NCBI GenBank assembly: GCA_017399005.1
Contig: JAFQEO010000002.1
Coordinates: 1-64,000 of the forward strand
Direction: 5' to 3'
Length of the DNA stretch: 64,000 bases
Source of the DNA: Peptococcaceae bacterium
GTDB lineage: Bacteria; Bacillota; Peptococcia; Peptococcales; Peptococcaceae
Numbering within the stretch: the first letter of the stretch is position 1; each line of letters starts with the position of its first letter. Positions 7,941 to 30,311 of this stretch are shown in pieces. A model generated the notes under the pieces. That model was not told the origin of the DNA. It ran no database searches and worked only from the letters and a program-made list of their open reading frames with translations. A program made the translations under genes and the position numbers.

Positions 7941-8507
7941 ACTGTACTGAATAGAGTTTTTAACAGATACAGTTATAAAAAAAGAAAAAAGGGGTAAGTA
8001 ATAAATATTCTTTGCGACAATATCTACTAACATGGTAGGAAAATAGAATAGAAAATTGCACTGAAAATGTAGACAAAAAGAGGATTTTTTTGTAAAATTA
8101 CTGTAGAAATGCTGTCTGGTTTTTTGAACCAGACTAGCGTGGAGCACAAAGAATATACAAAACTATCGTAAAACATTAAAAAACCGTATGCCCAATGAAT
8201 TGACACAGCGGAACAATGTTTTGGGAAAAATCATTATTCGGTTGTGCGAAATACGAAATTATTCTGGAAAGGAGGGAAGCTTTTATCGCATATAGTATTT
8301 TTGGATACGGCCAGCGATAGATTACAGGCAAACAGAGGCTGCCTAAGTCCTAAACGAGTGTTAGCAGCTTGTGAAAGTTTACCGCTCAGGCAGGAAGCTA
8401 TCTGGCAGGTAATGTATCCGGTAGTGTGCAGAAACACGATATGGGGGAAAGCGAGTGTCAGAAAAATAAAATCATTTTATAAAAATAAAACAGGGGGGGG
8501 AGGATCT
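7941..8507 (+). other. Gene-free leader region of the giant adhesin
   Basis: Between the spoIIE terminator and the adhesin start there are 567 bases without a convincing gene. 7941-8200 is AT-rich and nothing was recognised. The 8244-8507 part is open in the adhesin frame but has no signal-peptide or domain character, and a correct signal peptide begins at 8508. It is best read as a long 5' untranslated leader. Confidence 0.5.
8303..8419 (+). ncRNA. Candidate structured leader RNA, class unknown
   Basis: GGATAC (8303-8308) plus ATTAC (8321-8325) can pair with GTAATGTATCC (8409-8419), closing a domain of about 115 nt. Inside, CTAA/TTAG and AGGCTGC/GCAGCTT offer further stems. It does not match the riboswitch consensus patterns remembered for c-di-GMP-I, c-di-GMP-II, cobalamin, SAM or purine. 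It could be a regulatory leader of the adhesin or a chance fold. Confidence 0.35.
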
Positions 8508-11500
8508 ATGAATAAAAGATCACAACAACGTAAATTAACAGCATGGCTGATTTTACTCACCTTCTTATTTACCAGCATTATGCCGACCAATATCGGCAGC
8601 TGGAACAGCACGGCGGAGGCAGCAACATATGATACTGCAACGAACACGATTACTTTAACTGTTGGGGAAAGTTATACGTTGGATGCTTCCGATAAGTTTC
8701 CATCAACCAAGAGTTACAGTACGAACTATGGTACTCGCTCTTTTGAAAGAGGAAATACTTCCTGGAATAGTGACGACAGCAATATCGCTACTGTTAGCCG
8801 TACAGGATTAACTACAACCATTACCGGCTTAACAGCAGGTACTACTGAAATCACAGCATCTACGGTGTATAGCCGCTATTACTCTACTCGTACAGAAACC
8901 AGTACCTGGTATGTACGGGTTGTGGCTGCTACGGAACAAGAACAGCCAATGGGTACTGATCAGATTGACCTGACCAAGACTGCAACAGACAAAGATAAAA
9001 ATGCCAATGGCGAACAGATTTTTGACATTGCGTTAACGGTGCAGGGTGCAACTGTTCATGAAAAAAAACTGTTGGATGTTGTATTGATTCTGGATAACTC
9101 AGACAGTATGACAAGCAGTCTGATTACTGCAACAGAAAACGCTGCAAAAACATTCGTGGATACAATTTTCAGTAATGAAAATATTGATGCCCGTATAGCA
9201 GTTGTCCGTTACGGTACAACTGCGGCAGCGCGAGATTTTGCAACTAACAACAGCTGGGATACCTATGGTACTCGCTATGGCATTGAACATTATTCTAATA
9301 GCCAAAATTTGATTAACGGTGCCATTGAAGCTTTAGACGGTAGCGGTGGATCTACAAACACAGAAGGTGCATTTCTGGTTGCTAATAATCTGGCACAGAA
9401 CAAGCGTACCGGCGCGGAACATATCACCGTGTTTATGACCGATGGTGTTCCAACACAACATTATAATAATCAGAATGGCACTAGTGGTGGGAGTAGTTAT
9501 ACCAGTCTGTCTGACTATAACGAAGCTTTATCTGCAGCTATTGCATTGAGTGAAAATTCTGTTGTTTACAATGTTGCTTTAACAGCCGGCTTGGCACGGT
9601 ATCCTTATGATAACTTAATCGAAGGAAAATTCATGTCGCAACCGCCTTACCCGATGACACAGGACAGTAACAGCGATCGTCGTACTCCACAGTTCAGTAG
9701 TACACCATCTACAAGTTATGCGAAGGCATATTATAATATTGCATCTTCGAATGCAAATGCTATTGCTACCGAAATGGCTAAAGTATATGCTGACATTGCT
9801 ACTGAAGCTATGAATCTGGCAACAGGGAAAGTAGTGGATGTAATTCCAGCTGATTTTGCTCTGACGGATGTTGAAAAACTGAAAGCAGATGCTTTAGCAG
9901 CAGGATATGGAATTACAGTGACACCGAATGCTGATGGTACAACAACAGTTGAATTTACCGGTGTTGAAGCAAAAGACACACCAACTGTTCTGCCTGTATT
10001 TGAAGTAAAATACACAGGTAACGGTTATGGTGCAGTCTATACCAACATGGAAGCGACCTATGAAGGTACTCTGTATAATGATGAGCCATTTGAAAAAGCG
10101 TTTCCAAAACCGGTTGCTGGTGTTCATCCAAAAACAGTGGATGATACAGACACAGCGCTGGTAAATGAAACTATTCTGATTGATGTTGCATATAACGATC
10201 CGTTTAACCAGCTGGTAGTTCCAGGGTATACAGTATCGGATTATACAATTATTATTACAGATGCAAATGGTATCCCATTAGAGTATACTGATGCAGCCCA
10301 TCAGTTTACAGCAGTTGCAAAAGACGGGAAAGTGGAATTTGTTTCTTCTACTGATACTACAAAGGAATTTTACTATGTAGTTAAGGCGAACATTACACAA
10401 ACTGGTGAAAACTTTGCAATCAACGGAAAAACAGAACTGGTGAGCCGTCCAACAAAGGTTACGGTTACATTAGTTCCAACAATTAACATTGCAGTAGAAA
10501 AAGTATGGAAGGCTCCAGCAGGAACTTCTTATCCAAGTATTACTGTAAATCTTCTGCAGGATGGAGAAGTTTATGAGTCGGTTGTTTTACCTGCTGGTAC
10601 AACAACCTATACATTTACCAATCTGCCTGCAAAAACTACTGATTTGCAGCATGTTTATCAGTACACAGTAACAGAAAATGCAGTTGCAGGATATGTAACC
10701 GCTATCAACCCTTCTGATACTGCAAATGCTGCTAAATATGAAATTACAAACACTATTACCGGTACTATGGATATTACAGGCACTAAAACCTGGCATGACG
10801 GTGGCAAACTGCATAACAATGCGAATGAAGTTACTCTGATTCTTGAGAGAAACGTCAATGGCGGTGTTTATGAAACTGTTACTGTTAATCCATACTGGAG
10901 CGGTAACAATTATCGCTATGTTAATCTGCCAATGTATGATGGTGAAGGAAATCTGTATAACTATCTGGTAACAGAAAGTGCTATTGCTGGTTACAAATCT
11001 GTGAAAGATGGAAATAACTTCATCAATACAGAGCTGATTGATATCAGCGGTACAAAAACATGGATTGAAACAGAAGAAGACAAGAATATTGTGCATGACA
11101 ATGCCACTGAAATTGTTCTGACTCTGTCTCGTACTAGTGCAGATGGTACACAGACTGATATCCTCGCAGATGTGAAACCGGAATGGAACGGTGCTGTATA
11201 TGCATTTAAAAATCTTGAAAAGTATGACAGCAAGGGTGGTCTGTACAATTACAAAGTAAGTGAACAGATTATCCATCAGCCAGGAAATCCATATTATCAG
11301 ACTGTAATCACAGGTTTTGATATTACAAACAAAAGTGAAGATATCAAAAATGTAACCACAGAACTGCGCGGCCAGAAAATCTGGGTTGACGGTGGTAAAA
11401 CACATAACAATGCAGATGAAGTAAATCTGATTCTGGAAAGAAAACATACTCAGACAGACGGTACAGAAAGTGCGTGGGAAACTGTTGCAATCACAAACGG

Positions 11501-14500
11501 TATAAGTATGCATTGGGATGGTAATGTATTCCATTATGAAGGATTACCAAAATATCATCCTGATTGTGGCGGTCTATATGATTATCGCGTAAGGGAAAAC
11601 GGGGTCATCAATAATGAGCTTACAATCAATAACGTAACTTATGTTGTAACCCAGAATGGCAATACTATTACCAATACGATTAAACAGGAACCAGTAACCA
11701 TTAGCGGTAACAAAACATGGATTGATGATGGTAATAAAAACAATACTCGTCCATCCAGCATCACAGTGAATTTGTTAGAAAATGGTTCGAAAGTACAGGA
11801 ACAGACTGTAACCGCAGATATGAACTGGGCCTATGCGTTTCGCGATCTGCCAAAATATGATGCGGCAGGCTACGAAATCACCTATACTGTGACAGAGAAT
11901 CCGGTCAACGGCTATGACACAGTAATTGATGGTTATAATATTAAAAACACTATCAAACAGGAATATATTTCTATCAGCGGAACAAAAACATGGATTGACG
12001 GAAATAATAAATCTAATAGCCGTCCATCCAGCATTATAGTTAATCTGTTAGCGAACGGCAAAGAAGTGAAAGATGTAACAGTTAAACCGAATACAGATGG
12101 TGATTGGGAATATACTTTCAAAGATTTACCGAAGTATGACGAAAACGGTGCGATTATCACTTATGCTGTGACAGAAGATGCTGTAAAAGGGTACACAATG
12201 GCTATTACAGGTTATGACATTGCCAACAGCATTACAGATCCACAGGATGTGGAAGTGGCTGGTGAAAAAATCTGGATTGACGGTAATAACCAAAATGGTG
12301 AACGTCCGGAAAGTATCATTATTCGTCTGTTTGCAGATGGAAAAGACACAGGGAAATATGTAACTGTAACCGCTGCGGACAACTGGAAATGGAAATTTAC
12401 CAGTCTAGATAAATATGATGCATACGGATTTGAAATTCTTTACTCTGTAAAAGAAGATGCGGTAAATGGTTATATTACCGAATATCATACTGACGATTAC
12501 GATGTAGTGAACAGATTGGATGATTTTTATAAGCCAACTGAAGTACTCGGTACAAAAGTATGGGTAGACGGGAATATCACGCATAATAATGCAGAAGCAT
12601 TAACGCTGATTCTGCAGAGAACTATCGATGGAAAAATATGGACGACCGTAGATAACGCTCGTTATGTATGGCGCGATAATGATTTCCACTATCACAATCT
12701 GGCAAAATATGATGCAAACGGTTATCTGTACCAGTATCGTGTACTGGAAGACGGTGTTGTGAATGGAGCAATCACTGTAAACGGTATCGATTATATTGCT
12801 GATTCCTTTGTAGCTGATGCAAGTAATAGTTATACACTTAAAAACAGTGTAAAACAGGAACAAATCACTGTTACAGGTACAAAAATCTGGCAGGATAGCG
12901 TTGACAGAAATCACGACAATGCATCTGAGTTGACATTAACATTAACAAGAACCAGCGATAAACCAGGCGCCGAGCCAGAAACCGTTAATGCGAAAGTTAC
13001 ATGGAAAGGTGATACCTATTCCTTCAGTGGATTAGATAAATATGATGCCGAAGGTTATGTATATGCTTACAACGTAGCAGAAGCAGGCGTTGTAAATGGG
13101 GAAATCACAATCAATGTAAATGGGGAAGATGTACGTTATCAGGTGACACAAAACGGTAATGATGTTATCAATACAGAACTGATTACTATCGAAGGTAAGA
13201 AAATCTGGGATGATGATAATAACCGTGATGGCAAACGTCCTTCTACAGTAACAATCTGGTTATGGGCAAATCAGGTAAAACAGACATCTGCAACTGCCAA
13301 TGAGGCAGGGGAATGGGGATACAGATTTGAAAATCTTCCTGCGTATGTAAACGGTCACAAAGTGGTATACACAGTGACAGAAGAAGCTGTACCTGGATAT
13401 ACATCGCAGACAGTTAATGGATATGACGTTAAAAATACCTATGCTCCTGCAATGGTAGATATTCATGTGCAGAAAACATGGGAAGACGCAGATAATCAGG
13501 ATGGTATTCGACCTAAGAGCATTAGAGTTATGCTTCTTGCAAACGGGAAAACTGTTGATGAAGCAACTTTAATGGACAGAAATAACTGGTATCACCACTT
13601 TACCAACCTGCCGAAAAATGAAAACGGTGTTCCAATCGTTTATACCGTTCAGGAAGCGGCATTACCAGCAGATTCCGGTTATGTACTGAAAGATATGCAT
13701 CAGGAGATTAATGGCGTATGGCATATTATTAATGCGCATGCACCTGAAACTGTTGATATTGTCGGTACAAAAACATGGGATGATGCGAACAATCAGGATG
13801 GGAAACGTCCGGTAAGTGTTACAATTAATCTGCTGGCTGACGGTAAAATCGTTGCAAGTGATACTGTAACAGCCGTTAACGACTGGAGTTACAGTTTTGA
13901 CGATTATCCAAAATATGCAGCTGGTGAAATCGGTCGTGCAATTGTGTATACCATCAGTGAAGATCCTGTAGCCGGGTATACAACAAAAGTTAACGGCTAT
14001 AATGTAACAAACAGTTACAAGCCTGAAACAACAGAAGCAACTGTACAAAAAGTCTGGGATGATGCTGATAATCAGGATGGTAAACGGCCTGCTGAATTAA
14101 AAGTGACTTTAAGCAATGGCAAAGAGGTAATTCTAAACAAAGCAAATGGCTGGAAAGCAACCGTAAGTAATCTGCCAATGTATAAAGATGGAAAAGTTAT
14201 CAATTATACATGGACAGAAGCTTCTGTAAATGGTTACACTCTGACAGAAACTGTAACAAACGGTACTGTTACAACTCTGACAAACACACATACTCCTGAA
14301 ATAGTAAATATTCCAATTACAAAAGTATGGAATGACAATAATAATCAGGATGGCAAACGTCCAGATGCGATTACTCTGCAGTTATATGCGGACGGAGTGA
14401 AAGTGAATAACGCTCAAATCACACTGGATACTGAATTAGATGGCGTAGTTAATGATACTGATAAAAACGGTAATACAATCTGGTCGTATGTATGGAAAGA

Positions 14501-17500
14501 TTTAGACAAATACAATAATGGCAAGGAAATTGTATATCGTGTCCGTGAAGTAAATCCATCTAATAATGCTGTTGTTACAAATGGTCATCAGCTTGGCGAA
14601 TACACTGTAAATTATGTAAGAGCCAATGATGGGGCTATTACCATCACCAACAGCTATGTACCGGAAACCATTACTGTGAAAATGCAGAAAGCATGGAATG
14701 ATAATAATAACCAGGATGGCAGCAGACCACATGAAATTTATGTGAACCTGTTAGCAGATGGTGTTGTTGTTACTTCTGATGCCTCTGGCAATGCTGTCGG
14801 TAATGTAGCTGGATTCCCTGGTGTTCATAAAGTAGATCAAAGTACTGAATGGGCAAAAGCTATAGCTAATTTACCAGTATATAATAATGGTAGACAGATT
14901 GAATACACATGGGGCGAACTCCAGAAACAAACCAGTCAGACTGGAGAAGCTATTTATGTAAATGCTACGGACGGCAAAGTTATCTTTAAAAATGCGGATA
15001 ATAAAACATTTATTTATGATTTTGCATATATCGATAACGGGATTGGTAAAGATGGAATCCATCATGCAACCATTACCAATACTTATGAACCGGAAACTGT
15101 AAAAGTTGTAGTGAATAAAACATGGGTAGTTCCTGCAGGTGAAAACAATGTAACACTTCCTGTTGACGGAGATGTTAAAGTAACACTGCTGAAAAATAAT
15201 AATGCTGTGGCTGGTGAGACAAAAGGATTTGAATGGAAAGAACAACCACAGAATCCTGTTAACGGTCCGGCGAAGTTTGAAAGCAAAACTATCGTATGGG
15301 AAGATCTCCCACGATATGAAAACGGTGTAGAAATTGTATGGGATGTGGCAGAAAAACTTGATAAACATGCTAATGAATATGTAATTAGCGAACATGTTAC
15401 GAAAGAAGTTGTAAATGGTGTTTATACTATTACAATTGATCTGACAAATACCTATGATTTAACACACCGCAGTTTGTTGGTGAACAAAATCTGGGAAGAT
15501 AACGATAATCAAGATGGCAAACGTCCAAACGAAATTACTGTTCAGCTGTATTACAAGACAGATAACGGTAACGAATGGATTGCCGTTCCAGACAATAACG
15601 CTCCAACAGATACACCAAACAGCACGGAATTGACAGCTAGTAATAAAGCGGATTTCTTCTCTACTGTTGACGGTAATGTACAGTTGACAGCGGCTGTAGG
15701 CAGAGCAAGCAATCTGGAATGGGGTTATATCTGGGACAACCTGCCTCAGTATCTGAACCACACTCAGCAGGGCGGTACTGAAATTACTTATAAAGTAGTG
15801 GAAGATATTCCTGCTGGCTATGATAGTGATCCAAATGATGGTGATAACATCATTAAGGTAGACGAGGTTATCGAAGATGTAGCAGAAGGTACATGGGCAT
15901 TGAGCTTAACCAACTATCATGAAGTCGAAGAAACCAGTATTACAGTGCATAAGGTTTGGGCAGACAATAATAATCAGGACGGTAAGCGCCCTGAAACAGT
16001 AACTGTTCGACTGTATGCAAATGGTGTTTCTCCGTATGAAACAGCACCAGAACAGTATAAAGATAAATATCAGACTACTTTGAGTGCAGCGGATTACTGG
16101 AAATACACCTTTACAGAGTTGCCTAAATACCACAACGGTCAGAAAATTATATGGACTGTTCGTGAAATGTATAAAGACAATCATGTAAGACCAGGCGGTA
16201 CTGTAGAAAATGGTTATGTGGTAGCGTATGATGTTGCTGATGAGACAGCGAATAGTATTACAAAAGGCGATTTGATTATCACAAATACCTATATACCAGA
16301 AACCATTTCGATTCCAGTAACAAAAATCTGGAATGATGCGGACAACCAAGATGGTATTCGACCTGAAACAGTAACTGTTAAACTGTTTGCGAATGGTGTT
16401 GAAGTTGAAACACTGACAATCGGTGTCGATAACGATGAAGTTCTTGTTGACGGTAAAAACCAGTGGACAGCTTCTTTCACAAATCTGCCGAAATATGCAG
16501 ATGGCGAAGAAATTGTTTATACTATTACTGAAGACGAGGTAGATGGCTATACTGCTTTAATTGATGGTTTTGAAATCACCAATACTCATATGCCAGAAGA
16601 AACTGAAGCAACTGTTAAGAAGGTATGGGATGACGCAGATAATCAGGACGGCAAACGTCCAGATAGTCTGACTGTTACTCTGAGCAACGGTACAGAGGTA
16701 ACTCTGAGCGAAGCAAATGACTGGAGTGCTACTGTAGATGATCTGCCAGTATATGAAGCTGGTCAGAAAATCGAATACACCTGGACAGAAGGTGACATGC
16801 CGGATGGTTATGAACTGACAGATACAAGTGTAAATGGCACAGTGACAACATTGACCAACAGTTACGCAACAGAAACTGTAAAAGTATCCGGTGAAAAAAC
16901 CTGGATTGATGGTAACAATGCAGAAGGGACTCGTCCTGAAAGTATTACTGTAAATCTGTTTGCAGGCAGTGAATTTGTTAAGAGTGTTGATGTGACAGCC
17001 GCAGATAACTGGTCATACAGCTTCACAGATTTACCAAAATTTGCAGATGGTGAGGAAATCAGATACACCATCAGTGAAAATGAAGTAGCTGGCTATGATA
17101 CTACTTATAGTGGTGATTATGGCTACGATATTACAAACATCATTAAACAGCAGCATGTAGAAGTGTTTGGTGAAAAAATCTGGGATGCTCCAGAGGATCT
17201 GGAAGTACCAGTAGCTGAAATTACGATTAAGCTGTTCCGTGATGGTGTGGAAGCAGATACTGCTACAGTAACTGCTGAAGATGGTTGGACTTATGCATTT
17301 ACCGGTCTGGATAAATATGATTTAACAGATGGTCATGTATATGAATATACCGTGGAAGAAGTAACTGTAGTAGATGGCTTTGATGCAGAAGTTGTACAGA
17401 TTGACGATTATCACTTTGATATCATCAACACTTATGACAGAAGCGGTACTACTGAAGTATCCGTACAGAAAGTATGGGATTTCAATGGTATGGATGTAAC

Positions 17501-19154
17501 AAGTCCATCGGCAATCACCGTAGAACTCTATCAGAACGATGTTCTGCACAGTAGAGTAAATATCAGTGAGGATGATGGCTGGGCTCTGACCTTCAAAGAT
17601 TTACCGAAATATGATGCAAATCATAAAGCGTTTATCTATGAAGTGAAAGAAGTTCCTGTAAATGGCTATGACAGTGCTGTAACTGGTAACATGACAGATG
17701 GTTTTGTTATCACAAATACTCTGCAGTTAGGTGCGCCAGGCAGCATCTCTGTAACAAAAGAAGTTACGGGTGATAAAGCTCCTGTGAATGCAGAATTTAA
17801 ATTTGAACTGCATGTACAGCTTCATCCGGAAGGCAGCAATATGCTGTTTAACTTACGGGATGAATTGACTTTAGAGGATGCAGCAACTGCTCTGAACGAT
17901 GCGATTGATGAGGCGGAAAACAGCGTTATGCTGGTAACTTCTCCTTCTCAGTACGCATTCTATCTGACCGAACAGAATGACGGTGAAAGTCAGGCTGTTA
18001 TGGCTCTGGAATTTAATCATACAAGTCCGTCTGCAATTCTCTTTGAAGAGAACGGCCCGGTAGTAACACCTGCCGATGTAACAACAGACAGTATGTATGA
18101 ATGGATTAGCAATGTGACCAGTGATGTAGTAGCAGATATTCATGATTTGAGTATGGAATATCCGGAACTGGATGTACACGAGTTACTGGCTATGCTGAAA
18201 CTGGGTCTGGATGAAGAAGACGGTTTTGCTCTGGCGCTGGATTACGATGCAGTATGGAATCTGATTACAGCTGCTCGTGCATACAATGCATTAGAGGTGC
18301 CGGAAGCAGTGGTAACGACGACTCCGTCTGCACTGAAAATCTTCATGAACGGCTCTACAACCCCATGTGCACTGGAATGGGATGAAGATGGTTACTGGAA
18401 AGTAGCATTCAAACTTGCACATGGCGATACTGCTTACTTTGATATTGAAGCAACTACCGGCAGTGCAATAGATTATCGTATTGTGGAAATTCTGGATGAA
18501 GTAACACAGAAAAACTACAAAGAAACAGAAATCTATGATGCAGCAACAGACGAATTATTAAAAGATAATAGTCGTGTATACGGTTTTGTGGATTATGAAG
18601 ATGGCATGCAATACCTGTTCCTGAATATTTATGATGATAATGGCGGCGGTGGCGGCGGAGATGTAACACATTACATTGAACGCACCGTTACAAAAGTCTG
18701 GAAAGGCGACATTGTAAATGACCGTCCTGACTTTATCACAGTAGAAATTCTGAAAAACGGTGAAGTTTATGAAACCGTAATTCTGAATGCAGATAACAAT
18801 TGGCAGTATGAATGGACTACTGTAAATGATGGCACAGACTGGGATGTAAGAGAAATCAACGTTCCGGAAGGTTATGAATCCAGTATGACTGTAGATAATA
18901 ACCGTCACTGGACCATCACAAATACCAGAATTCCAAACGATCCTGATAAACCAGGACCAGATCCAACAGATAACCCAGGCGAAGAAGAAAAACCTGGCAC
19001 TGAGGAACCTGGAACTCCGGTAGAACCTGTAACTCCAGAACCAGATTTAGGCGATGCGCCAAAAACTGGAGACAGCAGCAATGCAGTAGCATATGTAATG
19101 CTGATGTTGTTTGCAATGGCTGGTTTAATTGTTACCAGAAGAAAACTGAACTAG
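8508..19154 (+). CDS. Giant cell-wall adhesin: VWA domain, about 24 Cna-B repeats, sortase-type anchor
   Basis: A 3548-residue secreted protein. Residues 1-39 are a signal peptide (basic start, 'WLILLTFLFTS', cut near 'AEAA'). Residues 45-140 resemble an Ig-like BIG2 domain. A VWA domain at about 185-430 keeps the metal-site motif as 'DNSDS' and 'FMTDGVP'. From about 660 to 3075 come roughly 23 Cna-B domains of 75-150 residues, each with a 'TKxW' lysine, a 'VTE'-like glutamate and an 'NT' asparagine, the residues expected to form an internal isopeptide bond. A pilin-like insert (3078-3384) and one more Cna-B follow. A Pro-rich wall spanner leads to 'APKTGD' (near 3515), a membrane span and 'RRKLN'. 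ATG 8508 follows GGGGAGGATCT. It probably acts as an extended adhesin or stalk; the ligand is unknown. No sortase is in the window. Confidence 0.9.
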   Translation: MNKRSQQRKLTAWLILLTFLFTSIMPTNIGSWNSTAEAATYDTATNTITLTVGESYTLDASDKFPSTKSYSTNYGTRSFERGNTSWNSDDSNIATVSRTGLTTTITGLTAGTTEITASTVYSRYYSTRTETSTWYVRVVAATEQEQPMGTDQIDLTKTATDKDKNANGEQIFDIALTVQGATVHEKKLLDVVLILDNSDSMTSSLITATENAAKTFVDTIFSNENIDARIAVVRYGTTAAARDFATNNSWDTYGTRYGIEHYSNSQNLINGAIEALDGSGGSTNTEGAFLVANNLAQNKRTGAEHITVFMTDGVPTQHYNNQNGTSGGSSYTSLSDYNEALSAAIALSENSVVYNVALTAGLARYPYDNLIEGKFMSQPPYPMTQDSNSDRRTPQFSSTPSTSYAKAYYNIASSNANAIATEMAKVYADIATEAMNLATGKVVDVIPADFALTDVEKLKADALAAGYGITVTPNADGTTTVEFTGVEAKDTPTVLPVFEVKYTGNGYGAVYTNMEATYEGTLYNDEPFEKAFPKPVAGVHPKTVDDTDTALVNETILIDVAYNDPFNQLVVPGYTVSDYTIIITDANGIPLEYTDAAHQFTAVAKDGKVEFVSSTDTTKEFYYVVKANITQTGENFAINGKTELVSRPTKVTVTLVPTINIAVEKVWKAPAGTSYPSITVNLLQDGEVYESVVLPAGTTTYTFTNLPAKTTDLQHVYQYTVTENAVAGYVTAINPSDTANAAKYEITNTITGTMDITGTKTWHDGGKLHNNANEVTLILERNVNGGVYETVTVNPYWSGNNYRYVNLPMYDGEGNLYNYLVTESAIAGYKSVKDGNNFINTELIDISGTKTWIETEEDKNIVHDNATEIVLTLSRTSADGTQTDILADVKPEWNGAVYAFKNLEKYDSKGGLYNYKVSEQIIHQPGNPYYQTVITGFDITNKSEDIKNVTTELRGQKIWVDGGKTHNNADEVNLILERKHTQTDGTESAWETVAITNGISMHWDGNVFHYEGLPKYHPDCGGLYDYRVRENGVINNELTINNVTYVVTQNGNTITNTIKQEPVTISGNKTWIDDGNKNNTRPSSITVNLLENGSKVQEQTVTADMNWAYAFRDLPKYDAAGYEITYTVTENPVNGYDTVIDGYNIKNTIKQEYISISGTKTWIDGNNKSNSRPSSIIVNLLANGKEVKDVTVKPNTDGDWEYTFKDLPKYDENGAIITYAVTEDAVKGYTMAITGYDIANSITDPQDVEVAGEKIWIDGNNQNGERPESIIIRLFADGKDTGKYVTVTAADNWKWKFTSLDKYDAYGFEILYSVKEDAVNGYITEYHTDDYDVVNRLDDFYKPTEVLGTKVWVDGNITHNNAEALTLILQRTIDGKIWTTVDNARYVWRDNDFHYHNLAKYDANGYLYQYRVLEDGVVNGAITVNGIDYIADSFVADASNSYTLKNSVKQEQITVTGTKIWQDSVDRNHDNASELTLTLTRTSDKPGAEPETVNAKVTWKGDTYSFSGLDKYDAEGYVYAYNVAEAGVVNGEITINVNGEDVRYQVTQNGNDVINTELITIEGKKIWDDDNNRDGKRPSTVTIWLWANQVKQTSATANEAGEWGYRFENLPAYVNGHKVVYTVTEEAVPGYTSQTVNGYDVKNTYAPAMVDIHVQKTWEDADNQDGIRPKSIRVMLLANGKTVDEATLMDRNNWYHHFTNLPKNENGVPIVYTVQEAALPADSGYVLKDMHQEINGVWHIINAHAPETVDIVGTKTWDDANNQDGKRPVSVTINLLADGKIVASDTVTAVNDWSYSFDDYPKYAAGEIGRAIVYTISEDPVAGYTTKVNGYNVTNSYKPETTEATVQKVWDDADNQDGKRPAELKVTLSNGKEVILNKANGWKATVSNLPMYKDGKVINYTWTEASVNGYTLTETVTNGTVTTLTNTHTPEIVNIPITKVWNDNNNQDGKRPDAITLQLYADGVKVNNAQITLDTELDGVVNDTDKNGNTIWSYVWKDLDKYNNGKEIVYRVREVNPSNNAVVTNGHQLGEYTVNYVRANDGAITITNSYVPETITVKMQKAWNDNNNQDGSRPHEIYVNLLADGVVVTSDASGNAVGNVAGFPGVHKVDQSTEWAKAIANLPVYNNGRQIEYTWGELQKQTSQTGEAIYVNATDGKVIFKNADNKTFIYDFAYIDNGIGKDGIHHATITNTYEPETVKVVVNKTWVVPAGENNVTLPVDGDVKVTLLKNNNAVAGETKGFEWKEQPQNPVNGPAKFESKTIVWEDLPRYENGVEIVWDVAEKLDKHANEYVISEHVTKEVVNGVYTITIDLTNTYDLTHRSLLVNKIWEDNDNQDGKRPNEITVQLYYKTDNGNEWIAVPDNNAPTDTPNSTELTASNKADFFSTVDGNVQLTAAVGRASNLEWGYIWDNLPQYLNHTQQGGTEITYKVVEDIPAGYDSDPNDGDNIIKVDEVIEDVAEGTWALSLTNYHEVEETSITVHKVWADNNNQDGKRPETVTVRLYANGVSPYETAPEQYKDKYQTTLSAADYWKYTFTELPKYHNGQKIIWTVREMYKDNHVRPGGTVENGYVVAYDVADETANSITKGDLIITNTYIPETISIPVTKIWNDADNQDGIRPETVTVKLFANGVEVETLTIGVDNDEVLVDGKNQWTASFTNLPKYADGEEIVYTITEDEVDGYTALIDGFEITNTHMPEETEATVKKVWDDADNQDGKRPDSLTVTLSNGTEVTLSEANDWSATVDDLPVYEAGQKIEYTWTEGDMPDGYELTDTSVNGTVTTLTNSYATETVKVSGEKTWIDGNNAEGTRPESITVNLFAGSEFVKSVDVTAADNWSYSFTDLPKFADGEEIRYTISENEVAGYDTTYSGDYGYDITNIIKQQHVEVFGEKIWDAPEDLEVPVAEITIKLFRDGVEADTATVTAEDGWTYAFTGLDKYDLTDGHVYEYTVEEVTVVDGFDAEVVQIDDYHFDIINTYDRSGTTEVSVQKVWDFNGMDVTSPSAITVELYQNDVLHSRVNISEDDGWALTFKDLPKYDANHKAFIYEVKEVPVNGYDSAVTGNMTDGFVITNTLQLGAPGSISVTKEVTGDKAPVNAEFKFELHVQLHPEGSNMLFNLRDELTLEDAATALNDAIDEAENSVMLVTSPSQYAFYLTEQNDGESQAVMALEFNHTSPSAILFEENGPVVTPADVTTDSMYEWISNVTSDVVADIHDLSMEYPELDVHELLAMLKLGLDEEDGFALALDYDAVWNLITAARAYNALEVPEAVVTTTPSALKIFMNGSTTPCALEWDEDGYWKVAFKLAHGDTAYFDIEATTGSAIDYRIVEILDEVTQKNYKETEIYDAATDELLKDNSRVYGFVDYEDGMQYLFLNIYDDNGGGGGGDVTHYIERTVTKVWKGDIVNDRPDFITVEILKNGEVYETVILNADNNWQYEWTTVNDGTDWDVREINVPEGYESSMTVDNNRHWTITNTRIPNDPDKPGPDPTDNPGEEEKPGTEEPGTPVEPVTPEPDLGDAPKTGDSSNAVAYVMLMLFAMAGLIVTRRKLN

Positions 19155-19360: not shown

Positions 19361-19389
19361 TTGATTTTATGGGCTAATCGTATTATACT
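19361..19389 (+). promoter_or_regulatory. Sigma-A promoter of the hrcA-dnaK operon
   Basis: TTGATT (19361-19366), a 17-nt spacer and TATACT (19384-19389), directly upstream of the CIRCE element. Confidence 0.85.
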
Positions 19390-19397
19390 ATTCACTG

Positions 19398-19424
19398 TTA
19401 GCACTCGAATAAAAAGAGTGCTAA
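19398..19424. promoter_or_regulatory. CIRCE operator (HrcA binding site)
   Basis: TTAGCACTC-N9-GAGTGCTAA is a perfect match to the CIRCE inverted repeat. Its position just after the -10 box means bound HrcA would block the start of transcription; heat release would derepress the five-gene operon. Confidence 0.97.
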
Positions 19425-19450: not shown

Positions 19451-20482
19451 ATGGAAATGGACAGCCGGAAGCAAAAAATCCTGGAGGCGGTTGTGCTGGA
19501 TTATATTGAAACTGCTGAACCGGTAGGTTCCAGAACCATCTCCAAGAAATATAATCTAGGTGTCAGTTCGGCGACGATTCGCAATGAAATGGCGGACCTG
19601 GAGGAAATGGGTCTGATTGAACAGCCGCATACGTCGGCAGGGCGTGTACCGTCCAATGCAGGGTATCGTTATTATGTGGACTATCTGATGAGCCAGAGCG
19701 ATATTCAGGAGGAAGCGAAACAGCTGATTCAGCAGGCGGTGAAAGATAAACAGCAACAGGTTAGTGATGTGCTGCGGGATTCGATGAAAATGCTGGCGGA
19801 AGTAACCAACTGTACTACGGTAATGATGCTGGACGACAGTAAAGGCTCTACGCTGCAACTTCTGCAGCTTCTGCTGGTGGAACCGGGCAAGGCTCTGATG
19901 GTGATTATCACTGAAGGGGACAAAATTGAAAATCGCTTTTTAGAGATTCCGGAATCCATGACAAAAGAGGATTTGGATTTAGTATCTATGATGATTAACC
20001 AGAACCTCCGTGGCCTGAAAGTGGATGACTGGCAGCGCAACATTCTGGAAAATATTTTTCAGAATCTGACTCGTCAGCGTCAGGTTGTGGATTGTGCATT
20101 AGAAATGTTATCTTCTATCTTGAATGTGCAGGGCAAAGATAAAAAGATTTATCTGGACGGCGGTCTGAATATGCTGTCGCAGCCTGAGTTCAAGGATGTG
20201 AATAAAGTAAAAAATCTGCTGCAGTCGCTGGAACAGCAGGAAGTATTAAGCCAGCTGATGGAAGGTGACACCGAAACCGGTATTACGGTAAAAATCGGGT
20301 CTGAAACGGGGCTGGATGAAGTTAAGGATTGCAGTGTGATTGTAGCAAGTTATAAAGTCAAAGGGGAAACCGTTGGGAAAGTAGGTCTGATTGGGCCAAC
20401 ACGAATGGATTATGCTACTGCGGTGTCGATGCTGAATACCATGGCGCAGACACTGGAGGAGGCTTACCAGGAAAATGAGTAA
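19451..20482 (+). CDS. hrcA: Heat-inducible transcription repressor HrcA
   Basis: A 343-residue HrcA, the repressor that binds CIRCE and is kept active by a chaperonin. The winged-helix N-terminus shows 'ETAEPVGSRTISKKYNLGVS', 'SATIRNEMADLEEMGLIEQP' and 'HTSAGRVPSNAGYRYYVDYL'. The C-terminal part has the usual 'GPTRMDYATAVSMLNTMAQ' ending. ATG 19451 follows GAGGTGGAGAAC; the longer frame would read through the promoter and CIRCE. It is the first gene of the operon and overlaps the next gene's leader. In most Firmicutes the partner is GroEL; here the operon carries a group III chaperonin instead, so that protein may be the chaperone that matures HrcA (inference). Confidence 0.96.
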   Translation: MEMDSRKQKILEAVVLDYIETAEPVGSRTISKKYNLGVSSATIRNEMADLEEMGLIEQPHTSAGRVPSNAGYRYYVDYLMSQSDIQEEAKQLIQQAVKDKQQQVSDVLRDSMKMLAEVTNCTTVMMLDDSKGSTLQLLQLLLVEPGKALMVIITEGDKIENRFLEIPESMTKEDLDLVSMMINQNLRGLKVDDWQRNILENIFQNLTRQRQVVDCALEMLSSILNVQGKDKKIYLDGGLNMLSQPEFKDVNKVKNLLQSLEQQEVLSQLMEGDTETGITVKIGSETGLDEVKDCSVIVASYKVKGETVGKVGLIGPTRMDYATAVSMLNTMAQTLEEAYQENE

Positions 20483-20493
20483 TGGAGGCAGCC

Positions 20494-22017
20494 ATGAGTG
20501 AGCAGCGGGAACAGAAATTTGATTTAATCGAGAATAACACCAATGCGGTGCGTGCGGTAATGACAGCAGTGGAAAGCACTATCGGTCCAAAAGGGCTGGA
20601 TACCATGCTGGTGGATCAGGCAGGTAATGTGGTAATTACCAATGACGGTGTAACCATTCTGAATCTGATGGAAGTCAGCCATCCGGTGGCTCGTATGTTA
20701 ATCCATTCGATTAACGCACAGCAGGATGCGGTTGGTGACGGCACCACAACAGCGGCTCTGATGGCTGGTGAGATGGTGATAACCGGGCTGGAGCAGGTGA
20801 AGAAAGGAGTGCCCGTGGCACAGGTATTAACCGGCTTGCGGTACGGTGTAAAAGAAGCCTGCCGTCTGATGGAGCGGGAAGCTGTTCTTGTAGGTAGCCT
20901 GGATACCGGCCAGCTGTATAATATCGCTTATGTAGCAGGCAGGGAGGATACATCCATTGCATCGCTAATTATGGAAGGTGCCAGACTGATAGGGCAGGAA
21001 AAACTTCTGGATTCCGGTTTCCGGTTTTCGCAGCAGGTGCATGCGGTGGAGGGTGCCGACAGTGAAGTGCTGAACGGCGTATATATCACCAAAGAGCGCC
21101 TGACACGGCAGATGCCTCTGGAACTGCAGGGCGACCTCAAAGTGATGGTGCTGGATGATGCACTTGAACAGGAGGAACTGAATAGTAGTGCACTGGCAAC
21201 AGAAAGTGGATTTCAGCAGTATCTGGTGTTAAAAGAAGAGTTCAAAACCAATATACAGAAATTAATCAGCACCGGTGTGCAGGCAGTATTTGCGGATCGG
21301 GGCGTTGATGACGCAGCAGCGGAAATGCTGGAAGAAGCCGGGGTCCTGGTTGTGGCCAGAGTGCCTCACCGGGAACTGGAGGAACTGGCAGAACACTGCG
21401 GTGCTAAGATGTTAAAACGCACAAGTCTGCAGAAATCAGCTGAGGAACTGAAAAAACAGTTCGGAACGGCATCCAATATTATAGGCAGTGAGAAACTGCA
21501 CAGCATTAAGGTGCTAGGTGGCAGAGGCAAAGCTATGGCTACCATTCTAGTGGGTGCAACCACCGGTGAAGTGGTCGGCGAGAAAGAACGCATTGCAAAG
21601 GATGCAGCAGCTAGTGTGCAGTCGGCATTACAGCGCGGGCTGGTGGCTGGCGGCGGTGCCGCAGAACTGGCTGTGGCAAGACAGTTGGAGCAGAATAAAA
21701 ATGCACTGTCTGGTATGGCGGTATTTGGTGCAGACTGTGTAATCGCAGCACTGAAAAAACCGTTTATGCAGATTGTAACCAATGCTGGGTTTAATCCTCT
21801 GGAAAAACTGGGTGATGTGCACAGAGCACAGGAACTGCAGCAGAATACACATCTCAGTATCAACTGTGATACCGGACGAATTGATGATTTATACATTTCG
21901 GGGGTTGTAGACCCGCTATATGTAAAGCTGCACGGGCTGAAAACAGCTGGGGAAGTGGCCGAGGCGATTCTGCGAATTAACATTATTGTAAAGAAAAAAG
22001 AATATCAGCAAATATAG
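20494..22017 (+). CDS. Group III (archaeal-like) chaperonin
   Basis: A 507-residue ring chaperonin of the thermosome type rather than GroEL. The ATP site shows 'STIGPKGLDTMLVD' (near 28-41), 'VVITNDGVTIL' and 'AVGDGTTTAALMAGEM' (79-94). Later 'VGATTGEVVGEKERIAKDA' and 'GLVAGGGAAELAVARQ' match the second equatorial half. No GroES gene accompanies it, as expected for a ring with a built-in lid. Bacterial group III chaperonins were described in a subset of Firmicutes (for example Carboxydothermus) inside the dnaK operon, which is the arrangement here. The start is taken as ATG 20494, behind GGAGG; an ATG at 20482 overlaps the hrcA stop. It should assist folding of cytosolic proteins under HrcA/CIRCE control. 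Confidence 0.9.
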   Translation: MSEQREQKFDLIENNTNAVRAVMTAVESTIGPKGLDTMLVDQAGNVVITNDGVTILNLMEVSHPVARMLIHSINAQQDAVGDGTTTAALMAGEMVITGLEQVKKGVPVAQVLTGLRYGVKEACRLMEREAVLVGSLDTGQLYNIAYVAGREDTSIASLIMEGARLIGQEKLLDSGFRFSQQVHAVEGADSEVLNGVYITKERLTRQMPLELQGDLKVMVLDDALEQEELNSSALATESGFQQYLVLKEEFKTNIQKLISTGVQAVFADRGVDDAAAEMLEEAGVLVVARVPHRELEELAEHCGAKMLKRTSLQKSAEELKKQFGTASNIIGSEKLHSIKVLGGRGKAMATILVGATTGEVVGEKERIAKDAAASVQSALQRGLVAGGGAAELAVARQLEQNKNALSGMAVFGADCVIAALKKPFMQIVTNAGFNPLEKLGDVHRAQELQQNTHLSINCDTGRIDDLYISGVVDPLYVKLHGLKTAGEVAEAILRINIIVKKKEYQQI

Positions 22018-22055
22018 AAAGATATCATAGCAAATAAAGGAGTGTGACTCATCAC

Positions 22056-22598
22056 ATGACAGAACAGGAAAAAGAAATCCTGGAGGAAGAACTGGCAGAA
22101 GATGTACAGGAAGAAACCGTTGAAGAAACTGCGGAAGAACAGGAAGAAGCTCTGGACCCTGAAAAACTGGCTGCTGATCTGGCAGAATTAAATCAGCGTT
22201 TTCTGCGAACTGCTGCAGACTTTGAAAACTATAAACGCCGCACCGCACAGGAAAAAGATGATCTGCTGAAATACAGCAATGCAAAACTGATGGGAGAACT
22301 ACTGCCGGTACTGGATAATTTCCAGTTGGCGCTGAAAAGCCCGGCAGAAAGCCAGGAAGCGCAGAATGTGGTAAAAGGTGTGGAAATGATTTACCGCCAG
22401 ATGGTGCAGACCCTGGAACAGGCAGGCATGGCAAAAATTGAAGCAGTTGGCCAGCCGTTTGATCCAAATCTGCATGAAGCTATCATGCAGGTGGACGATG
22501 ACACAGTGCCGGAAGATACCGTAGTGGAAGAACTGCGTGCCGGTTATATGCTAAAAGAACGGGTAATCCGTCCAAGTATGGTTAAAGTATCTAAATAA
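22056..22598 (+). CDS. grpE: Nucleotide exchange factor GrpE
   Basis: A 180-residue GrpE, which releases ADP from DnaK. A very acidic N-terminal tail and coiled coil (to about residue 75, 'RFLRTAADFENYKRRTAQEKDDL') precede the beta domain, with 'GQPFDPNLHEAIMQVDDD' and the ending 'GYMLKERVIRPSMVKV'. ATG 22056 is chosen; AAAGGAG lies 13 nt upstream, while the alternative GTG 22044 is too near that site. It lies between the chaperonin and dnaK on the same strand. Confidence 0.95.
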   Translation: MTEQEKEILEEELAEDVQEETVEETAEEQEEALDPEKLAADLAELNQRFLRTAADFENYKRRTAQEKDDLLKYSNAKLMGELLPVLDNFQLALKSPAESQEAQNVVKGVEMIYRQMVQTLEQAGMAKIEAVGQPFDPNLHEAIMQVDDDTVPEDTVVEELRAGYMLKERVIRPSMVKVSK

Positions 22599-22648: not shown

Positions 22649-24460
22649 ATGGGAAAAGTAATCGGGATTGACTTAGGGACAACAAACTCTTGCGTAGCAG
22701 TAATGGAAGGCGGCGAACCAGTTGTAATTCCTAACAGCGAAGGGAACCGTACAACAGCATCTGTACTGGGTATTTCCAAAGCAGGGGAACGTCTGGTAGG
22801 TCAGGTTGCAAAACGTCAGGCAATCACAAACCCAGATAACACTGTAAGTTCTATTAAACGTCATATGGGGACTGACTACAAAGTAACCGTAGCAGGCACC
22901 GCTTATACACCACAGGAAATTTCCGCTATGATTCTGCAGAAACTGAAAGCAGACGCAGAAGCATATCTGGGTGAGGCTGTAACAGAAGCAGTTATCACTG
23001 TACCAGCTTACTTTACAGACAGCCAGCGTCAGGCTACCAAAGATGCAGGTAAAATTGCAGGTTTAAATGTACTGCGTATCATCAACGAACCAACCGCAGC
23101 ATCTCTGGCTTACGGCATGGACAAAGAGGACGACCAGACTGTATTAGTATTCGACCTGGGCGGCGGTACTTTCGACGTTTCCATTCTGGAACTGGGCGAT
23201 GGGATTTTCGAAGTAAAAGCAACCAGCGGTAACAACCGTCTGGGCGGCGATGACTTTGATGAAAAAGTAATCGACTGGATGCTGGTAGAATTCAAAAAAG
23301 AAACCGGTATCGATCTGGCAAACGATAAAACTGCAATGCAGCGTTTAAAAGAAGCTGCTGAAAAAGCAAAAATCGAGCTGTCCACAGTAACCAGCTCCAA
23401 CATCAACCTGCCATTCATCACTATGAATGAAAACGGTCCTCAGCATCTGGACTTAACTTTAACCAGAGCAAAATTTAACGAATTAACAGCTGACCTGGTT
23501 GAAAAAACAATGGGTCCAACTCGTCAGGCTCTGAAAGATGCAGGTTTATCTGCAAACGATATTCATAAAGTTATTCTGGTTGGCGGTTCCAGCCGTATTC
23601 CAGCAGTACAGGAAGCAATCAAAAATCTGCTGGGCAAAGAACCATTCAAAGGTATCAACCCCGATGAATGTGTAGCAATTGGTGCTGCAATTCAGGGCGG
23701 TGTATTAGCCGGCGAAGTAAAAGACGTAGTATTACTGGACGTAACACCACTGTCCTTAGGGATTGAAACACTGGGTGGTGTATTTACAAAAATCGTAGAA
23801 CGCAATACCACAATTCCAGTATCCCGCCAGCAGGTATTTACAACTGCAGCTGACAACCAGACATCCACCGACATTCATGTACTGCAGGGTGAACGTGAAA
23901 TGGCACAGTACAACAAAACTCTGGGCCGCTTCACACTGATGGATATTCCACCAGCTCCACGTGGTATTCCACAGATTGAAGTTAAATTCGATATCGACGC
24001 AAACGGTATCGTAAACGTATCTGCAAAAGACCTGGGCACTGGCAAAGAACAGAGAATCACAATCAAATCCAGCAGCGGTCTGAGTGATGCAGAAATCGAT
24101 CAGATGATTAAAGATGCAGAAATGAACGCAGAAGCAGATAAAAAACGTAAGGAAGAAGTAGATATCCGCAACAATGCTGATGCTATGGTATTCCAGGTAG
24201 AAAAAACCCTGAAAGACATGGGCGACAAAGTAGATGCTGCTGAAGTAGCAGATATCAACAAGGCTAAAGATGAATTGAAAGCTGCTCTGGAAGGCAATGA
24301 CACTGCTGAAATTAAAGCTAAAACCGAAGCTCTGCAGGATGTTCTGTACAAAATGACCGAAAAAATGTACGCAGCTGCACAGCAGGCACAGGCTGATATG
24401 GGCGGTCAGTCTGCACCGCAGGAAGACGGCGTATACGACGCAGAATACAAAGAAGTTTAA
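22649..24460 (+). CDS. dnaK: Molecular chaperone DnaK (Hsp70)
   Basis: A 603-residue Hsp70. The nucleotide domain begins '[19 protein letters not shown]', with '[14 protein letters not shown]', '[15 protein letters not shown]' and '[12 protein letters not shown]'. The substrate domain starts after '[18 protein letters not shown]' and ends 'EYKEV', equivalent to the EEVD-like bacterial tail. As in other Gram-positive DnaK proteins, the long insertion seen in Proteobacteria is missing from the first lobe. TTAGGAGGAAGA precedes ATG. It works with GrpE and DnaJ encoded beside it. A 135-nt gap with a hairpin separates it from dnaJ. Confidence 0.98.
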
Positions 24461-24566: not shown

Positions 24567-24595
24567 GAACGAGATTGAATAGAGGAGGACCAGTC

Positions 24596-25792
24596 GTGGC
24601 AAAGCGCGATTATTATGAGGTACTCGGCGTAGAAAAAAACGCCAGCGATGATGAACTGAAAAAAGCCTACCGGAAACTGGCCAGACAATATCATCCTGAT
24701 GTAAATCCGGATAACAAAGAAGCAGAAGAAAAATTTAAAGAAATCAATGAAGCATACGAAACCCTGTCCGACTCCACCAAACGCGAACAGTATGACCGGT
24801 TTGGTCATGACGGCCCTGGCGGTTTTGGCGGCGGAGCAGGCGGTTTCGGTGGATTTGGCGGCCAGGATTTCGGCGGTATGAATGATATTTTTGACATGTT
24901 CTTTGGCGGCGGTTTCGGCGGCGGTCAGCAGCAGAGAGGACCGCGCAAAGGTTCTGACCTGCGCTATGACCTGACCATCGATTTTGAAGAAGCTGTATTT
25001 GGTACTGAGAAGACCATCACTCTGCCAAAATGGGAAAACTGCAGTACCTGTCAGGGTTCTGGTGCAAAACCTGGCACCAGCCCGACAACCTGTACCCAGT
25101 GTAACGGTACCGGGCAGATTTTCACCATGCAGAGAACACCGTTTGGGCAGATGCAGACTGCAAAAGTGTGCCCGACCTGCGGTGGTACTGGTCAGATGAT
25201 TAAAGACCCATGCCCGGAATGTAACGGGAAAGGGAAAAAACGTGTTAACAAAAAAATTGAAATCAAAGTTCCAGCCGGTGTGGATGTGGGTTCCCGTCTG
25301 CGCATGAGTGGTGAAGGTGACCCTGGGGAACAGGGTGGCCCGAACGGCGATTTATATATCTACATCAATGTACGCAGTCATCCGGTATTCATCCGTGATG
25401 AGGATGACATCTACATGGAACAGGAGATCAATATTGCCCAGGCAGCGTTAGGTGCCGATATTCAGGTGCAGACTCTGGAAGGTAATGTAACTCTTACCAT
25501 TCCAGCCGGTGTACAGAGCGGTGCCAAATTCCGCATGAAGGGTAAAGGTGTAAAAAATATTAAAGGTTACGGCAAAGGCGACCAGTACGTAACCATCAAA
25601 GTGGTAACACCAAAAAATCTGACTGCCGAACAGCGTGATTTACTGCAGCAGCTGTCTGCAACCTTTCAGACTGTAGAGCCCGTTGATAACAGTGCAAAAG
25701 ACAGCAAAAAAAAAGAAGAAAAAAACGAAAAAAATAAAGGTTTCTTCGGTAAAATGAAGGAAGCGGTCGAAGATTTATTCGATGAAGACTAA
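24596..25792 (+). CDS. dnaJ: Co-chaperone DnaJ (Hsp40)
   Basis: A 398-residue class I DnaJ. The J domain has the HPD motif in '[10 protein letters not shown]'. A Gly/Phe-rich region ('[20 protein letters not shown]') follows, then four zinc-binding repeats: 'CSTCQGSG', 'CTQCNGTG', 'CPTCGGTG', 'CPECNGKG'. The C-terminal substrate-binding domains come next, ending in a Lys/Glu-rich tail. It stimulates DnaK ATPase and delivers substrates. GTG 24596 follows GAGGAGGACCAGTC and gives the usual '[11 protein letters not shown]' start; an upstream ATG adds six residues before it. A terminator closes the operon. Confidence 0.97.
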
Positions 25793-25811: not shown

Positions 25812-25845
25812 ATCAGGTACATCTTATGATGTACCTGATTTTTTT
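25812..25845 (+). terminator. Terminator of the hrcA-dnaJ operon
   Basis: ATCAGGTACATC pairs with GATGTACCTGAT, followed by a run of seven T. Confidence 0.95.
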
Positions 25846-29309: not shown

Positions 29310-30311
29310 TCAGAAAAAATTAGCAGCGAAGTCTTCGTTCATGTCAGGATGTAGTGTTCTTGTAATAGCCCTTGCGATAATTGTGCTGCAGTTCTGCACA
29401 AGGTCGTCAATTTCTTTTGGAGTGACTTCCATATTGTGCTGGCAGGGTTCCAGTGCATACTGCATAAGATTGCGGACAGTAGGCTCCGGCAGTTCTTTCA
29501 GCATACGGCTGAGCTGAGGGCGCTGATGCAGCTGTTCCCAGAAGCTTTCCAGAACCTGATGGGCAATGATACGGGCTTTGACAACCGTCGGGATTCCTAT
29601 AGAGATAACGGGAACTCCCATTGTTTCTTTGTTGATTCCGGAACGCTGGTTTCCAACTCCGGCGCCGGGCGAAATACCAGTATTACTGATTTGAATCGTA
29701 GTGCCGATGCGGCTGATATCACCGGCAGCCAGTGCGTCAATAACAAGAATCAGCTCCGGCTTTATCTGTTTTGCGGCACTTCGTATGATATCGGCGGATT
29801 CTATGCCGGTCATGCCGAGCACACCGGGGGCGATAGTGGCAACCGGACGCACACCTTCCAGAATTTCATCTGGCACTTTGCCGTAAAGGTGACGAGTTGC
29901 CATCAGCTGGCTGATAACACGAGGACCCAGCGCATCAGGTGTGGATTTCCAGTTTCCAAGCCCGGCGACCAGAACAGGAGCTTCCAGGGAAGAAAGTGTT
30001 ATAAATTTTTTTAGATGTTTCGTCACCAGATTGCTGACAGATTCCAGGATACCATGGTGGTTGACGGCCAGTTCTTTACAGTGGATGGTGACGTAGATAC
30101 CCTCGGGTTTCTGCATAATGCGGCTTCCCTGACTGTTTAAAACAGTAACGGTGTGTACCGTAGCAATATCTTCAACTTCTTCGGTCAGACGCACACCGGG
30201 AATTTCACCGCCGCGGTCTCCCCGCAGCAGATCGTGAGCTTCCAGCGCCAGTTCCGGGAGCATGCCCCACTGCTGATATAGTGAAAATTTTGTTTCAGCG
30301 GATTTATCCAT
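29310..30311 (-). CDS. gpr: Germination protease GPR
   Basis: A 333-residue GPR endopeptidase, which degrades small acid-soluble spore proteins during germination and is made as a zymogen in the forespore. Family segments are 'LALEAHDLLRGDRGGEIPGV', 'PVLVAGLGNWKSTPDALGPR', 'PGVLGMTGIESADII', 'LVIDALAAGDISRIGTTIQI' and 'NTGISPGAGVGNQRSGIN'. Length is normal, with a short propeptide region. AAAGGAGGCCG precedes the ATG. Its presence shows that the lineage makes, or recently made, true spores. The 270-nt upstream region holds a possible hairpin (about 30395-30460) and no gene; a sigma-G promoter could not be assigned with confidence. Confidence 0.96.
   Translation of the reverse strand: MDKSAETKFSLYQQWGMLPELALEAHDLLRGDRGGEIPGVRLTEEVEDIATVHTVTVLNSQGSRIMQKPEGIYVTIHCKELAVNHHGILESVSNLVTKHLKKFITLSSLEAPVLVAGLGNWKSTPDALGPRVISQLMATRHLYGKVPDEILEGVRPVATIAPGVLGMTGIESADIIRSAAKQIKPELILVIDALAAGDISRIGTTIQISNTGISPGAGVGNQRSGINKETMGVPVISIGIPTVVKARIIAHQVLESFWEQLHQRPQLSRMLKELPEPTVRNLMQYALEPCQHNMEVTPKEIDDLVQNCSTIIARAITRTLHPDMNEDFAANFF

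Follow-up and report, generated by a model that had tools for sequence, protein, structure and literature searches.

The gene between hrcA and grpE in the window, the 64,000-nucleotide stretch of Peptococcaceae DNA analysed here, encodes a genuine archaeal-like Group III chaperonin within a CIRCE/HrcA dnaK operon. We consider it very probable that this protein is a GroES-independent, HrcA-regulated extra chaperonin beside GroELS, with HrcA feedback running mainly via GroEL/GroES. The arrangement has been known since 2010 and is common in the phylum, and the window gene is a further member. The preliminary description of this DNA had placed a thermosome-type chaperonin with the motifs GPKGLD and GDGTTTA between hrcA and grpE of such an operon, and the motifs, NCBIfam models and gene order all agree with it. 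The parts follow one another on the forward strand in the order CIRCE, hrcA, chaperonin gene, grpE, dnaK and dnaJ, followed by a terminator-like hairpin:

19361 to 19389, + strand: predicted sigma-A-type promoter, TTGATT-17-TATACT, from a consensus scan, just 5' of CIRCE, with only 9 of 12 matches, which taken alone say nothing of function
19398 to 19424, + strand: CIRCE operator, TTAGCACTC-N9-GAGTGCTAA, a perfect copy and the sole match in the window
19451 to 20482, + strand: hrcA, heat-inducible transcriptional repressor (NCBIfam TIGR00331, 5.8e-104)
20494 to 22017, + strand: Group III (thermosome-like) chaperonin, 507 aa (NCBIfam, alignment, tree, structure model)
22044 to 22598, + strand: grpE (NF010738, 2.9e-55)
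22649 to 24460, + strand: dnaK (NF001413, 1.4e-294; TIGR02350, 2.6e-283)
24575 to 25792, + strand: dnaJ (TIGR02349, 1.8e-144)
25812 to 25839, + strand: terminator-like hairpin of 12 pairs followed by T6, 3' of dnaJ

Even with three mismatches permitted, only 0.03 CIRCE matches are expected in the window by chance. The start of hrcA is more likely the ATG at 19451, because the start in the open reading frame list (TTG at 19361) would include CIRCE, and the true dnaJ start is probably slightly downstream of the listed 24575. The chaperonin reading frame spans 20482 to 22017 and offers an alternative ATG at 20482 which overlaps the hrcA stop (TAATG), but the start at 20494 given in the preliminary description is the better one, because GGAGG at 20485–20489 precedes that ATG and related proteins are alignable from there. 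The operon probably ends at the hairpin. The heat-shock genes are directly preceded, at 8244–19154, by the gene for a repetitive protein of surface type (3636 aa), which has a von Willebrand-like region, numerous mutually similar repeats resembling Cna B-type domains and, at its C terminus, an anchor-like tail. A GPR spore protease gene at 29310–30311 on the reverse strand (TIGR01441, 1.3e-103) points, by its sequence match, to spore-forming ancestry of this apparently gut-associated lineage.

The best NCBIfam models for the chaperonin were those of the archaeal thermosome (2e-81, under those models' cut-offs); the GroEL models scored much worse (1.4e-36). Assignment to GroEL (Group I) fails both on score, with 126 bits for TIGR02348 against a cut-off of 582, and on context, with no groES beside the chaperonin gene. 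Among natural proteins of solved structure, Ch-CPN came closest (5x9u, 7.7e-122, versus 3.3e-60 for the best natural thermosome), and the top fold matches of a predicted structure (pLDDT 87) were 5x9v and 5x9u, two crystal structures of Ch-CPN that cover its closed and open states (43% identity, TM 0.84–0.90). In both sequence and fold the protein resembles Ch-CPN more than it does Group I or II chaperonins, which places it in Group III. The key residues named for Ch-CPN are R155, D373, L237, F243, Y246 and F253 (PMC5635000). The first two correspond to R154 and D374 in the window protein, which are invariant in 18 sequences and are the putative ATP hydrolysis residues, and the remaining four to L238, F244, Y247 and F254, the putative lid tip. 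The lid region is present in the predicted structure, giving a built-in lid with a conserved hydrophobic tip, and the nucleotide-sensing loop is missing, six residues being absent relative to Mm-Cpn in the alignment and R154, the counterpart of Arg155, standing in its stead, as in Group III. Members of this class are further marked by double rings, eight subunits to the ring, that hydrolyse ATP and refold proteins, an assembly that the window protein would be expected to share. In a tree of 44 chaperonins, the phylogenetic check proposed in the preliminary description, the window protein separated from GroEL at 100/100 and nested in a bacterial, family-specific clade; Group III as a single branch had only 63/72 support in that tree, in which Ch-CPN was long-branched.

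Whether GroELS is also encoded elsewhere in the genome had been left as a question, and it is. On contig 8 the genome (2.41 Mb, 99.8% complete) encodes another chaperonin, preceded by groES; this groES-groEL pair is intact, and a perfect CIRCE lies 5' of groES. The search for further CIRCE sites yielded one more perfect copy outside the window, the third in the genome, just upstream of htpG (Hsp90; G000 contig 23, L006 1-1527). With perfect copies at all three loci, the dnaK-chaperonin, groE and htpG genes therefore appear to form an HrcA regulon, and Hsp90 appears, on the strength of its operator sequence, to belong to that regulon in this lineage. CIRCE was likewise found upstream of htpG in G002, G007 and G019 (L198, L203 and L189). 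The earlier statement that the chaperonin has no GroES partner is right in that none adjoins it and none is its own, but groES-groEL is present elsewhere under its own CIRCE. The wording "instead of GroEL" is similarly correct in that the protein is not GroEL, but misleading, because hrcA-grpE-dnaK operons ordinarily contain no chaperonin, and the chaperonin here is an addition to the operon.

In a sample of 398 phylum genomes, each at least 97% complete, a Group III chaperonin was present in 112, and all 112 carriers encoded both GroES and HrcA. GroES was missing from three and HrcA from five of the 398, with no carriers among them. The Group III protein thus comes on top of GroEL and does not replace it, nor is it rare; the window's class alone has the gene in 23 of 31 genomes (at least 90% complete). 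That such chaperonins occur in this operon in Firmicutes, as the preliminary description held, is known (PMC5635000, PMC5904260). Gene context is strongly conserved among 80 named contigs with a Group III gene: hrcA directly precedes it in 77 of the 77 with upstream DNA, grpE comes next in 76 of 80, and of the 75 in which the CIRCE site is in range, 72 have a perfect copy. A variant operon, hrcA-chaperonin-dnaJ without grpE and dnaK, was observed in four genomes (L099 4812-8727, L125 814-4836, L066 and L070), which encode dnaK elsewhere (grpE nearby in three of the four) and also have groES-groEL with a CIRCE-like site. A further genome, G019 (L019, L057, L189; 96% complete), has the Group III chaperonin and HrcA, with CIRCE at hrcA and htpG only; GroEL and a groE-linked CIRCE were looked for and not detected in this assembly. 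As all 112 more complete carriers have GroES, this absence is probably an assembly gap, and it would otherwise be a natural test case. The closest records that carry a name include uncultured Peptococcaceae sampled from the cecum of water buffalo, the colon of dairy cattle and the rectum of sheep, hence the branch is probably gut-dwelling. The window gene belongs to a fast-evolving, frequently lost branch, apparently of animal gut origin.

Gene loss is seen within the window's own genus, where two genomes (G002 and G007) lack the chaperonin gene. In both, only a short spacer separates hrcA from grpE, and neither CIRCE nor HrcA is damaged. In G007 a further CIRCE accompanies a short piece of hrcA, and the assembly may contain two strains; the clean hrcA-grpE junction was seen independently in G002. 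Presence and absence plotted on an HrcA tree of 41 genomes required at least six changes, and two further losses were found in families f35 and f63. One apparent chaperonin-less genome (G152) was rejected and excluded from the losses, the gene lying at a contig end. Disrupted Group III copies (L204, L206 and L178) were also observed, with one internal stop each in G192 and G227 and a frame break in G059, their sequences suggesting decay in progress or sequencing errors. The repeated loss of the gene with HrcA and CIRCE kept means that, by gene content, it is dispensable for HrcA/CIRCE control, and contradicts an obligatory role in HrcA feedback.

The proposal that this chaperonin sets HrcA feedback, made in the preliminary description, has gene order as its sole support and fared poorly against these losses, the GroELS under CIRCE in the same genome and the constant company of GroES. 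If HrcA depended on the chaperonin, its re-adaptation would be expected after loss, and we therefore compared evolutionary rates of HrcA with those of its operon neighbours GrpE and DnaK on fixed trees in nine loss lineages, leaving out G008 with its frame-broken DnaK. HrcA was faster than its neighbours in seven of the nine (ratio 1.2–4.2 in those; p = 0.13, Wilcoxon, n = 9), and carrier-carrier controls scattered equally wide (0.5–2.7). Among the papers searched, none tested a Group III chaperonin on HrcA. It is conceivable, though unlikely, that the Group III chaperonin aids HrcA maturation or feedback alongside GroELS, so that two distantly related chaperonins would titrate one repressor and HrcA would have to adjust to GroEL alone once the gene was lost. 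We see only a slim chance that HrcA feedback is sensed chiefly by the Group III chaperonin, which would keep HrcA folded and active and, by cotranscription with hrcA, close the loop on its own operon. Its invariant position right after hrcA, even where grpE and dnaK are gone, would suit such a sensor, as would the tendency of HrcA to outpace GrpE and DnaK after loss, by up to 4.2-fold. However, that trend is not significant, two genomes of the same genus and further lineages lack the gene while keeping HrcA and CIRCE sites, perfect ones in G002 and G007, and GroES accompanies the chaperonin wherever it occurs in the phylum sample.

That this gut lineage recently acquired a thermosome gene from archaea was suggested by the best NCBIfam models, but is refuted and highly improbable: identity to archaeal proteins is only about 30%, versus mostly 50–62% to other Bacillota outside its genus, the operon position is the same across the phylum, and the chaperonin nests in its own family in the tree. 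A much older transfer, at the root of Group III, may nevertheless have occurred (PMC5635000, PMC12696368). Replacement of GroEL, with GroELS absent or decaying, could draw on the missing neighbouring groES and on G019, but has practically no standing given GroES in every one of the 112 carriers, and is refuted for the window genome by its intact groES-groEL with CIRCE.

The reading we prefer remains that of an extra chaperonin under shared HrcA control. By analogy with Ch-CPN, the window protein would be a self-lidded ATPase forming double rings. The hrcA promoter would give a single transcript of hrcA, the chaperonin gene, grpE, dnaK and dnaJ, which HrcA would repress at one CIRCE until heat or protein damage relieved the repression, as described in the HrcA/CIRCE literature. 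The chaperonin would then add a GroES-independent folding chamber beside ordinary GroEL/GroES under the same repressor, and DnaK/DnaJ may feed clients into it. GroE modulates HrcA in Bacillus subtilis (PMC8957991), and feedback here most likely runs through GroEL/GroES in the same way, with the Group III chaperonin an auxiliary modulator at most. Although the result is otherwise expected, Group III chaperonins, known mostly from extreme environments, are hereby extended to relatives that apparently live in the gut. The clean recent losses within one genus also provide natural pairs in which to study the role of the chaperonin and whether HrcA responds to its absence.

Our results agree with reports of dnaK operons that contain a Group III gene in genomes with a separate groE operon, both HrcA-regulated (PMC5635000, PMC5220055, PMC5904260); PMC5904260, citing Techtmann and Robb 2010, places both GroEL and the Group III chaperonin of Firmicutes under HrcA. 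Ch-CPN of Carboxydothermus hydrogenoformans (PDB 5X9U/5X9V; PMC5635000) shares with the window protein its fold, lid and ATPase residues, about 43% identity, the absent nucleotide-sensing loop and a gene in the dnaK operon, but comes from a thermophile and sits on a long branch, whereas the window protein comes from an apparently gut-living member of the Peptococcaceae and from a branch of the family that evolves fast. The Group III proteins of Desulforamulus, Pelotomaculum, Heliobacterium, Propionispora and Thermincola are about 52–56% identical to the window protein and have the same order, CIRCE-hrcA-chaperonin-grpE-dnaK-dnaJ, but with a longer spacer between hrcA and the chaperonin gene, where the window genes overlap or nearly touch. 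Bacillus subtilis resembles the window genome in that its dnaK and groE operons are both governed by HrcA and CIRCE (PMC8957991); its dnaK operon, however, has no chaperonin, and the window genome also has CIRCE at htpG. The archaeal thermosome (Group II) has the same overall fold and built-in lid, but is only about 30% identical, possesses the nucleotide-sensing loop and is encoded outside a dnaK operon.
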